A stretch of 64,000 nucleotides of DNA from Streptomyces canus (GTDB lineage: Bacteria > Actinomycetota > Actinomycetes > Streptomycetales > Streptomycetaceae), in NCBI RefSeq assembly GCF_030816965.1, contig NZ_JAUSYQ010000002.1:9910001-9974000 (forward strand), written 5' to 3'. Positions 22,191-25,050 of this stretch are shown one piece after another. The translations under genes were made by a program, and so were the position numbers. The notes below the pieces were generated by a model, which saw only the letters and a list, made by a program, of their open reading frames with translations, searched no databases and was not told the DNA's origin. The stretch's first letter is position 1; each line of letters starts with the position of its first letter.

Positions 22191-22198
22191 AGTTGAGG

Positions 22199-23083
22199 AT
22201 GGACCTGCGGCGGCTGCGGTATTTCCTCGTGCTGGCCGAGGAGTTGAACTTCACGAGGGCCGCGCACCGACTGCACATCGCCCAGCCCGCTCTGAGCCAG
22301 CAGATCAAAGCATTGGAACGGGACATTGGCGCACCGCTGCTCGAACGCAACAGCCGGGGCTGTCGGCTGACCGCCGTCGGTGAGGTTGTGGCCCGCGAAA
22401 CCGGCGAACTGCTGGCCCACGTGGCCGCGTCGCAGGAACGGATCCGTGCGGCCGTCGGCGGACAGCGGCGGCAACTGCGCCTGGCCCTGACCCGCTCCGC
22501 TCGCGGTGGCCCGGTCGACGCACTCCTCACGGAGTTCCGGGCCCGCCATCCGGACGTGGATCTCGTCGTACGCACCGGGTGGACCTCGCACAACATCACC
22601 GAGCTGCTGGCCGGGAGGCTGGACGCCGCCTTCGTACGGCCGCCGCTGGACGGCGAGGGTCTGGAGTGCCGGCACATCGCCCGCGAGGAACTCCTTGTGG
22701 CCGTCCCCGCGGAGCATCCCCTCGCCCGCGAACGAAGGATCACCCGCGGGCAGATCGCCGCAGAACCCGTGATCCTCTGGCCGCGCGAGAACGCCCCTGG
22801 AATGCACGACGTGATCTCCCGGCAGCTGTGGCCCGACGGCGGGCCGCGCATCGTGCGGGAAGAGCCCGACGACGAGCAGCTTCTCCTCAGCGTGGCCGCG
22901 GGCGTCGGCATCGCGCCGGTGCCCGAGGGGCGCGCCCGCGCGCTGCGCATACCCGGAGTGCGGCTCAAGCACGTGACCGCACCCATGCCCACCGTGGAAC
23001 TCGCCCTGGCCCACCGGCCGGCAGGCGCCGCACCGGCGCTGCAAGGACTCCTCGGCCTGGTCGGCACCCTGCTCGACGAATGA
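22199..23083 (+). CDS. LysR-family transcriptional regulator
   Basis: The 294-residue protein has the N-terminal winged helix typical of the family: MDLRRLRYFLVLAEELNFTR, AAHRLHIAQPALSQQIKALE, RDIGAPLLERNSRG. The periplasmic-binding-like effector domain runs from about residue 90 (LRLALTRSARGGPVDALL) to the end. ATG is used in preference to the TTG two codons earlier, and no strong Shine-Dalgarno is seen. Divergence from the D-amino-acid oxidase gene suggests it senses a D-amino acid or its oxoacid. Confidence 0.9.
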   Translation: MDLRRLRYFLVLAEELNFTRAAHRLHIAQPALSQQIKALERDIGAPLLERNSRGCRLTAVGEVVARETGELLAHVAASQERIRAAVGGQRRQLRLALTRSARGGPVDALLTEFRARHPDVDLVVRTGWTSHNITELLAGRLDAAFVRPPLDGEGLECRHIAREELLVAVPAEHPLARERRITRGQIAAEPVILWPRENAPGMHDVISRQLWPDGGPRIVREEPDDEQLLLSVAAGVGIAPVPEGRARALRIPGVRLKHVTAPMPTVELALAHRPAGAAPALQGLLGLVGTLLDE

Positions 23084-23668: not shown

Positions 23669-23893
23669 CTAGTTCCGGTACCGGAACACGATCCGTCCGC
23701 GCGTCAGGTCGTACGGCGGGAGCTCCACCAGCACCCGGTCTTCCAGCATGATCTTGATGTAGTTCTTGCGGATCTTCCCGCTGATGTGCGCGAGCACCTG
23801 GTGGCCGTTCTCGAGTTCCACGGTGAACATGGCGCTGCGCAGGCACTCGACGACCTTGCCCTCGACCTCGATGACGTTCTTGTTCTTCGTCAT
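23669..23893 (-). CDS. infA: Translation initiation factor IF-1 (extra copy)
   Basis: IF-1 binds the 30S ribosomal A site during initiation. The 74-residue S1-like OB-fold protein carries the family core: [60 protein letters not shown] and the end RIVFRYRN. It is not in the ribosomal-protein/rpoA setting where the housekeeping infA normally lies, so this is probably an additional copy. The ATG overlaps the acetyltransferase stop by four bases, tying its translation to that gene and hence to the leader-peptide region upstream. A strong hairpin terminator follows. Confidence 0.93.
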
Positions 23894-24681
23894 CGCGCCA
23901 GCTCCAGGTTGCTGCTCATCGGCCGGGCGCCGATGCCCCCGAACAGCGCCGAGGCCGCGTGGTTGGACTCCTGGACCTCGGTCCAGGCCGCGGCGACACC
24001 GGAGCGGTGCATCGTCCCCAGTGCGTGGGCCAGCAGCGCCCGCGCGATGCCACGGCGCTGCTCGTCGGACCGGACCGCGACCAGCCCGATGCGTGGTCGC
24101 TTGACCGTCACCACCCGGATCAGACCCAGGTAGCGGTCGGCCACCGCGGCCACCGCGTACTTCGACGGGTCCACGATGGTGTCGCCTTCGAGCCGGGGGA
24201 TCACCTCCGCAGGCATGGACTGCCACCCGACGGTCGCCTCGACTTCGTCACGGATCGCGCGGTCCACCGCCCGCAGCAGACGCTCGTCCGCCTGACCGGC
24301 GGGCACGATCGTCACGCCCGCAGGCGGCATGGCTGCTTCAAGCCCTGTGACCCGCGGGTCGGTCGGCACGACGTACTCCCACTCTCGGCGCCGGATCGTG
24401 AAACCGGCCCGCCGCCAGCCGGCCGTCAGCTCGACATCGGCTTCGTCGACCACCGTGTACAGCGGTGCCGGCAGTTCAGCCAGCATCACCTCGGCGAGCC
24501 GGTCGAAGATCACGTCGTGCCAGGCGTCGATGCTGACGAACAAGCGTCCGTCGGGCCGGTGTTGCGCATGCCCGCGACCGACCACGAGGTCGTCATCCAG
24601 CGCATGCCATTGCCTGTCCGCGACGCGCGTGATCATCAGCGCGTTCTCGCTCAGGCCAGATGTGAAAGGTTGTGTGTTCAT
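23890..24681 (-). CDS. GNAT-family N-acetyltransferase
   Basis: The 263-residue protein has a C-terminal GNAT fold: [20 protein letters not shown], then [20 protein letters not shown] with the acetyl-CoA motif RRGIA, and [20 protein letters not shown] with the conserved Asn of motif B. The N-terminal half (residues 1-130) is a second, degenerate GNAT-like region. The substrate is unknown; an antibiotic or ribosomal target is possible given coupling to infA. The ATG is preceded by GGAGGGAG at a six-base spacing. That Shine-Dalgarno is complementary to a segment inside an upstream leader ORF, so expression is probably controlled by translation of the leader. Confidence 0.85.
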
Positions 24682-24695
24682 CGGAGTCTCCCTCC

Positions 24696-24721
24696 AGGAG
24701 TGCCTCGATCTAGGCGCTCCT
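24696..24721 (-). promoter_or_regulatory. Leader hairpin before the acetyltransferase ribosome-binding site
   Basis: In the mRNA, AGGAGCGCCT pairs with AGGCACTCCT (one mismatch) around a 6-base loop, ending directly at the acetyltransferase Shine-Dalgarno GGAGGGAG (24688-24695). That Shine-Dalgarno can alternatively pair over seven bases with CTCCCTC inside the leader ORF (24760-24766). Competing pairings of this kind are the hallmark of translational attenuation. Confidence 0.6.
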
Positions 24722-24735
24722 GGCGACACCGAACG

Positions 24736-24789
24736 TCAGCCGCCGGACCGTGACGGGTTGAGGGAGCACCCATGGGTAACTGTGTTCAC
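24736..24789 (-). CDS. 17-codon leader peptide of the acetyltransferase-infA operon
   Basis: The GTG start is preceded at five bases by GGAGGTGA, a full complement to the 16S rRNA 3' end and the strongest ribosome-binding site in this part of the window. The peptide reads V-NTVTHGCSLNPSRSGG and stops 54 bases before the acetyltransferase ATG. Codons 9 to 11 contain CTCCCTC, which can pair with the acetyltransferase Shine-Dalgarno. A ribosome paused here would free that site. Such leader ORFs control many antibiotic-inducible resistance genes in actinomycetes; the inducer cannot be read from sequence. Confidence 0.65.
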   Translation of the reverse strand: MNTVTHGCSLNPSRSGG

Positions 24790-24815
24790 GGGTCTCACCT
24801 CCATACGACGACTTC

Positions 24816-24833
24816 ACGGTCCATCAGGACCGT
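24816..24833. promoter_or_regulatory. Inverted repeat upstream of the leader ORF
   Basis: ACGGTCC-ATCA-GGACCGT is a perfect 7-bp inverted repeat with a 4-base spacer, 14 bases upstream of the leader ORF's ribosome-binding site. It could be a repressor site over the promoter or the first hairpin of the leader RNA. Confidence 0.45.
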
Positions 24834-24893
24834 AACAGCGGGGCGCCGCCGTACTCCAACCCTTTTCTGTCGGCGAGCTGGATGGGTTCGTCA

Positions 24894-25050
24894 GGGTGTT
24901 CCGCCAGGGGATCGCTGACCGGGACACGCCGTGCGCTCGTAGCGGCGGTGGAGTCTGCGGCAGAAGCCGGCATGCCGGAGTGGGATCAGGACCTGACTGT
25001 CATGGACCTTGGTGCCCGACAATCCGACGGACAGGGACAGACGCCGTGGC
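24894..25050 (-). mobile_element. IS5-type transposase relic
   Basis: Two conserved parts of IS5-family (DDE) transposases are joined with the middle missing: GLSGTKVHDSQVLIPL, which resembles the SGANxHDSQxLxPL stretch after the second catalytic Asp, and then GFCRRLHRRYERTA, which resembles the terminal CRRLHRRYERKAEHF segment. No terminal inverted repeats are seen. The fragment lies between the acetyltransferase leader and an FMN-binding protein gene, in a stretch with several other gene relics. Confidence 0.65.

Follow-up and report, generated by a model that had tools for sequence, protein, structure and literature searches.

We found that the genes for a GNAT acetyltransferase and a second initiation factor IF-1 in Streptomyces canus are preceded by a short leader, apparently a member of an undescribed family which, in many actinomycetes, stands before enzyme genes of five kinds. 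We favour, with a probability of roughly 0.6, the reading that this leader is a ribosome-mediated attenuator responding to ribosomes arrested at the start codon of a small leader ORF. It probably switches the downstream genes on when ribosomes stick. Attenuators of this kind are known; the family, its targets and a branch with near-cognate start codons appear to be new. The locus lies on the minus strand of a window of 64,000 nucleotides, which is the whole stretch of DNA that we analysed (Table 1).

Table 1. Features of the leader and its operon (positions in the window), followed by two plasmid loci (positions in the named locus).
Feature	Position	Strand	Remark
Leader -10-like element TACGGT	24829..24834	-	TAnnnT conserved across copies
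Segment 0, GGACCGTGA	24814..24822	-	near the predicted 5' end of the transcript; partner is segment 2b
Leader Shine-Dalgarno, GGAGGTGA	24802-24795	-	nearly invariant in the alignment of GNAT leaders
Segment 1, GGAGGTGAGACCC	GGAGGTGA and the bases down to 24790	-	partner is segment 2
Leader ORF, GTG to TGA, 17 sense codons, peptide VNTVTHGCSLNPSRSGG	24789-24736	-	in-frame stop conserved
Segment 2, GGGTGCTCC	24763..24771	-	alternative partners: segment 1 or segment 3
CTCCCTC inside the leader ORF	24766-24760	-	
Segment 2b, TCACGGTCC	24745..24753	-	late leader codons; partner is segment 0; same as inverted repeat I2
Second hairpin (P2), outer helix, 5' arm CGGTGTC	24725..24731	-	covariation
P2 inner hairpin, CCAGGAGCGCC/GGCACTCCTGG	24723-24694	-	covariation
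Segment 3, GGAGCGCC	24720-24713	-	5' arm of P2; pairs with segment 4
Segment 4, GGCACTCCTGG	24704-24694	-	inner 3' arm of P2
Shine-Dalgarno of the GNAT gene, GGAGGGAG	24695-24688	-	enclosed between the inner and outer helices of P2
P2 outer helix, 3' arm GACTCCG	24682..24688	-	ends directly before the GNAT ATG
GNAT gene, 263 aa	23890..24681	-	predicted tandem-GNAT fold
infA, second IF-1 gene	23669..23893	-	ATGA overlap with the GNAT gene
Shortened GNAT-related protein, L299	2501-3317		Tsukamurella plasmid
Shortened GNAT-related protein, L301	2501-3241		S. viridifaciens plasmid

Sequence comparison indicates that the leader RNA can form mutually exclusive helices, one of which (P2) encloses the Shine-Dalgarno (SD) sequence of the downstream gene. 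A first structure, P1, combines helices 0:2b and 1:2 and hides the SD of the leader, P2 combines helix 3:4 and an outer helix, and helix 2:3 competes as the alternative to both. With no ribosome on the leader, or with freely running ribosomes, P2 would form and the GNAT-IF-1 operon would be poorly translated. A ribosome held at the start or second codon would cover segment 1 and stop just short of segment 2, and the freed segment 2 could then capture segment 3 during transcription, so that P2 would fail and the gene would be translated. The leader would report arrest at initiation or at the first peptide bond, not one nascent peptide. IF-1 would be co-induced in the GNAT branch, and the leader would serve enzymes that modify small molecules. 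The original prediction, a translational attenuator, agrees with this mechanism in having a translated leader ORF and exclusive helices, one of them locking the downstream SD; it differs in the pairing that it invoked, between CTCCCTC in the leader ORF and the SD of the GNAT gene.

The 17-codon leader ORF and its own SD lie where they had been placed, and exactly 54 bases separate the leader stop from the ATG of the GNAT gene, as had been stated. The hairpin that was said to end at the SD of this gene is also present, and the two have two bases in common. In the minimum free energy structure of the window leader this SD sits between the two helices of P2. Folded alone as a single sequence, the window leader is weakly unusual (z of -1.72). 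The bases around the leader start (24781-24799) and the GNAT start (24673-24691) are 74% identical over 19 bases at a spacing of 108, which possibly reflects an old duplication of the initiation region. Downstream of the IF-1 gene, a LysR-type regulator is encoded on the plus strand (22193-23080).

The GNAT protein was modelled with a mean pLDDT of 82.6, and tandem GNAT structures top the Foldseek and VIA-align lists for this model, while Pfam recognises the C-terminal domain alone. Judging by the model, the protein is likely to comprise two GNAT-like domains in one chain, a shared fold that says nothing on its substrate. The second protein of the operon matches the IF-1 profile TIGR00008 with 111 bits (cut-off 61) and is 68% identical to the one further IF-1 of the genome. 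We analysed the best 80 of 116 GNAT relatives from named genomes (63-92% identical). All 80 have the leader SD and an ORF of the same layout upstream, so the leader is kept in front of these homologues, where its absence had been named as grounds for giving the prediction up. They also all have an IF-1 gene directly behind the GNAT gene on the same strand (median distance of -1 base), and the operon that had been proposed is thus no local accident. In the genus sample, the GNAT gene is present in 70 of 392 genomes. Among the genomes with the lowest-scoring GNAT matches, a match to the leader model abutted the GNAT start, by coordinates, in 30 of 30.

Some loci encode shortened GNAT-related proteins (152 or 110 aa) between the leader and infA (L299, L301 and L155). 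At these loci the acetyltransferase is reduced, and yet both the leader and IF-1 have been retained. We dropped the idea that the plasmid copies consist of the N-terminal GNAT domain alone, as their translations show shortened proteins. One genome carries a third GNAT copy in two pieces (G325 C1:8289935-8290722), with a stop codon noted inside one of them; its start is still abutted by a leader match.

The family was delimited with covariance models. A first model, built from 77 GNAT leaders, had matches in 107 of 394 Actinomycetes genomes (E 1e-3). A wider one, built from 55 leaders of several gene classes, had matches in 124 of the 394 genomes and 43 of 137 genera (E 1e-4). In the phylum sample, the wider model matched 17 of 396 genomes, all labelled as the same genus or the same class. 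With the leader of one rifampin monooxygenase (rox) gene as the query, matches at E 1e-3 were obtained in 169 of 199 Streptomyces genomes, some of them near the threshold, and in 44 plasmid records; nine of the ten best plasmid matches had no annotation under the leader.

We examined the downstream gene in 210 copies, a subset of the model matches. Of these copies, 81 (80 loci and the window) came in through the GNAT search, and those from named genomes (L031-L110) may include species that are also in the other genome set. Every downstream gene fell into one of five families, whose names rest on representatives: GNAT (89), alpha/beta hydrolase (55), PrmC-related (32), rifampin monooxygenase (24) and patatin-like (10). 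Four representatives scored above the cut-offs of known profiles: 838 bits with NF033145 rif_monoox (cut-off 800), 430 with TIGR03704 for the PrmC-related methyltransferase (cut-off 249), 41.6 with Patatin (cut-off 27.7) and 35.1 with Hydrolase_4 for one alpha/beta hydrolase (cut-off 27). Another alpha/beta hydrolase matched no Pfam family and resembled the esterase 4ao6 (3e-20). Three leaders are found in the S. canus genome, one each upstream of GNAT-IF-1, of rox and of a PrmC-related gene. A fourth match (L224, 20 bits, E 0.66) was dropped, with no downstream family found.

Rfam 15 gave no family at the gathering score in the window region, where three sub-threshold matches were at chance level, and it gave tRNAs only in six other leader loci. 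Two tRNA genes lie upstream of one alpha/beta hydrolase leader (L152 2833-3101). The open-access literature yielded no description of the leader, nor of a rox, GNAT-IF-1 or PrmC leader, an absence that is no proof of novelty.

The leader ORF shows the marks of a translated gene. Directly ahead of segment 3, 201 of 207 copies have a stop in the frame of the ORF, against 5 and 20 copies with one in frames 1 and 2. In this test the frame was taken from the codon after the SD, and the stop had to end no more than 25 bases ahead of the first base of segment 3 and no more than 2 bases past it; two copies without a recognised segment 3 were left out, as were two more beforehand. The frame and the stop position are preserved through compensating indels. 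This conservation of the frame suggests that the ORF, mostly of 16 to 20 codons, is translated. In most classes the ORF starts with ATG or GTG. The PrmC-related class has a near-cognate start in 27 of 27 copies (ATT 13, ATC 12, GTT 1, GTC 1), and some alpha/beta hydrolase leaders (9 of 50) start with ATC, ATT or GTT. The PrmC-related leader of the S. canus genome (L142 2576-2720, G000:C2:789575-789719) and its relatives L277, L283 and L238 have a near-cognate start with the frame kept to the stop.

The peptide itself is conserved at its N-terminus: among 162 copies, position 2 is Asn in 129, position 3 is Ala in 117, position 4 is Val in 106, and position 5 is Ser or Thr in 127. Conservation of residues 2 to 5 (Asn-Ala-Val-Ser/Thr) is what one would expect if a drug caused arrest at a fixed inner codon through a specific peptide motif, as in ermC. 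Yet the rest of the peptide varies by class (WVLP, HGCS, MGAP) and is read in three frames. The frame in which the ORF reads segment 2 differs between copies (111, 42 and 9 of the 162 for the three frames), and therefore it is the base sequence that is conserved there, not the peptide. Moreover, in our folding model a ribosome with codon 3 or a later one in its P site masks segment 2. We thus regard drug-dependent arrest on the nascent peptide as quite improbable.

Of the 210 copies, 206 have a TAnnnT hexamer about 30 bases before the leader SD, within a 32-base stretch that ends 18 bases short of it; among windows further upstream, 5 of 552 have one. Such a position suggests that the transcript starts near segment 0. 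A consensus scan of the window leader found no sigma-70-type promoter. A near-perfect palindrome (TTACGGTCCTGATGGACCGTGA, 24814-24836) covers the -10 region and the 5' end in the window. This palindrome, together with the very high conservation of segments 1 and 2 at the base level, would suit an RNA that binds a protein or a metabolite, or a DNA operator, with the ORF being incidental. We consider this explanation extremely improbable: the frame and stop are kept through compensating indels, no Rfam family was matched at threshold, and the palindrome is not seen in the GNAT relatives inspected, most of which lack its left half (it is partly kept in a few, e.g., L039).

Helix statistics were obtained from 100 leaders aligned to the wider covariance model. 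Helices 0:2b, 3:4, P2 outer and 1:2 are part of this model, and the alignment therefore leans towards them. With this in mind, 85.7% of the cells are paired in helix 0:2b, where all eight pairs have changed on both sides (48 such cells); 78.1% in helix 3:4, the inner helix of P2 (27 compensatory cells); and 68.1% in the outer helix of P2 (26 compensatory cells), where slid controls gave 36-63%. For each of these three helices, 0 of 500 shuffles matched. Helix 1:2 is paired in 94.4% of the cells and has no compensatory change. Helix 2:3 is not in the alignment model. It is paired in 97.0% of the cells (36-66% in slid controls), has three compensatory cells and does not stand out from column shuffles (94 of 500). 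Since compensatory cells are so few, conservation and complementarity speak for helix 2:3 more than covariation does. The GNAT-class alignment gave 89.5% of paired cells and nine compensatory cells for helix 3:4, and 91.9% and none for helix 2:3. In an unfitted MAFFT alignment, the whole structure is paired in 80.2% of the cells, against 44-51% when slid.

The pairing of CTCCCTC with the SD of the GNAT gene is not conserved: it is found in 49.6% of the cells (100 sequences), within the range of slid controls (40-67%). The conserved partners of the segment that contains CTCCCTC are instead GGAGCGCC in the 5' arm of P2 (97.0%) or the SD region of the leader itself (94.4%). The rejected pairing is also far weaker in duplex energy, with a mean of -8.8 kcal/mol against -18.6 kcal/mol for helix 2:3 (117 of 141 copies; the other 24 were dropped because the segment anchors were not found). 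When arms were swapped between classes, the own partner was better than that of the other class in 78 (P2 outer), 65 (0:2b) and 75 (2:3) of 117 copies. We did not retain arm-swapping as a test of covariation: it is too noisy in GC-rich RNA and separates true from swapped partners weakly.

We then placed a ribosome on the leader in the folding model, with an assumed footprint of 15 bases on either side. The first paired base of segment 2 lies 15 to 22 bases into the ORF, mostly 20-21 (18-22 in 161 of 162 copies), which is just outside this footprint when the ribosome sits on the start codon. In nascent RNA, cut after segment 3 (155 copies), the pairing values of helices 1:2 and 2:3 were 0.77 and 0.07 without ribosome, 0.06 and 0.69 with a ribosome at codon 1, 0.08 and 0.64 at codon 2, and 0.36 and 0.07 at codon 3; helix 2:3 was at zero with the ribosome at codons 4, 6 and 9. 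Folded as nascent RNA, the leader thus shows the exchange of helices that a translational attenuator calls for; folded at full length and at equilibrium, it does not open the downstream SD. Its mean unpaired value changed from 0.43 to 0.42 with a ribosome at the start codon (162 copies), access rising by more than 0.1 in 11 copies and falling in 12. The inner helix of P2 is dominant at equilibrium both without ribosome (0.75) and with a ribosome at the start (0.68). As P2 wins regardless, the outcome would have to be settled while the RNA is being made or with some help, unless the mechanism is a different one. Pairing in P2 was poorer in the patatin and PrmC classes.

A choice between helices 2:3 and 1:2 that is clear in nascent RNA only would also suit a transcription attenuator in which P2 is the terminator and 2:3 the antiterminator, as for the ABCF genes are5sc and lmrC. 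Transcription attenuation driven by the start codon of a uORF has been reported in Streptomyces (PMC12421871). Against this mechanism, the 3' arm of P2 takes in the SD and reaches the start codon, an extent that a terminator would not require. A scan found zero terminator-like sites in window positions 24600-24950, U-tract-free and Rho-dependent termination being outside its reach, and the longest T run after P2 (20 bases around the downstream start) is of at most three bases in 160 of 162 copies and of four in the other two. These two results favour translational control, and we hold transcription attenuation to be rather unlikely.

Ribosomes at the end of the leader offer a further possibility. 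Of 162 copies folded at equilibrium with a ribosome at the leader stop, 53 gained more than 0.1 in access to the downstream SD and 18 showed a fall. This gain keeps alive an explanation in which a ribosome pausing at the stop occupies the 5' side of P2 and thereby exposes the SD, so that slow release, or plain translation of the leader, is the ON signal. The leader stop is well placed for this, at most 25 bases before segment 3 in the 201 copies mentioned above, and one target class is related to PrmC (TIGR03704), a protein that modifies release factors. However, the mean rise in access is small (from 0.43 to 0.47), and the complementarity of segment 2 to both segments 1 and 3 would be left unexplained. 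A sensor of termination or coupling is, in our opinion, unlikely, and we retain arrest at the leader start codon as the preferred trigger.

The proposed attenuator resembles known systems in part. Attenuators of the ermC type have a leader ORF, a 1:2, 2:3 and 3:4 logic and a hairpin over the downstream SD, all of which have counterparts here. Unlike in ermC, conservation of the peptide ends after residue 5, segment 2 would be freed by arrest at codon 1 or 2, an extra helix at the 5' end (0:2b) closes the first hairpin, and one leader is common to five unrelated target families. The uORFs of the Streptomyces ABCF genes are5sc, tiaA and lmrC are described in PMC12421871 as transcription attenuators with terminators, in which lincosamide, streptogramin A and pleuromutilin drugs stall ribosomes at the start codon. 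This start-codon stalling is the nearest precedent for the trigger that we propose. The same paper gives very short leaders (MLV, MVGDDDISG). Our family shares with them the actinomycete hosts, the short uORF and the mutually exclusive RNA conformations. In contrast to what is described there, no terminator was seen here, most leaders run to 16-20 codons, the downstream SD lies inside P2, and the target genes encode small-molecule enzymes plus IF-1 or a PrmC-like protein. The riboregulation of whiB7/wblC, as cited in PMC12421871, likewise involves an actinomycete uORF that responds to ribosome inhibition, but it controls the transcription of a regulator.

A wider reading, possible but in our view somewhat doubtful, is that of an actinomycete-wide alarm. 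What the leader would sense is not a nascent peptide but ribosomes frozen at initiation, on the start codon or at formation of the first peptide bond. It would drive unrelated enzymes that modify drugs or metabolites: the tandem GNAT, the rifampin-type monooxygenase, and the alpha/beta and patatin-like hydrolases. One branch would add a spare IF-1. Another, the PrmC-related one with near-cognate leader starts (AUU, AUC, GUU and GUC), would report on initiation fidelity, and initiation and termination factors would provide feedback. If this is right, one unannotated RNA element ties at least five enzyme families, in 43 sampled genera, to the state of the initiating ribosome. Inducers for otherwise silent modifying enzymes of soil actinomycetes could then be predicted, and the recurrent GNAT-IF-1 operon would gain a function. 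The PrmC-related branch would be a rare case of conserved use of near-cognate starts (all 27 counted), making control by initiation fidelity directly testable.

The rifampin monooxygenase branch is odd for a sensor of ribosomes, because the target of rifampin is RNA polymerase. If the wider reading holds, leader-bearing rifampin monooxygenases may be responding to arrested ribosomes. They could do so within a general alarm, or because rifamycins are not their natural substrates, or not the only ones. The 19-mer that we take to be the rifampicin-associated element (RAE) had at least five mismatches everywhere in the upstream regions of 23 of 23 leader-bearing rox genes, and seven in the window. 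With no match to this 19-mer, the RAE is probably not what controls these genes, which seem to be under another control. In PMC10719064 and PMC12802891, the RAE is a 19-bp palindrome at rifampicin-response genes including rox, proposed as a transcription-factor site; our leader is likewise found upstream of actinomycete rifampin monooxygenase genes. The rox copy of the S. canus genome (L141 1381-2841, G000:C2 near 9752838, 838 bits with NF033145) lacks a match to the 19-mer and has the same leader.
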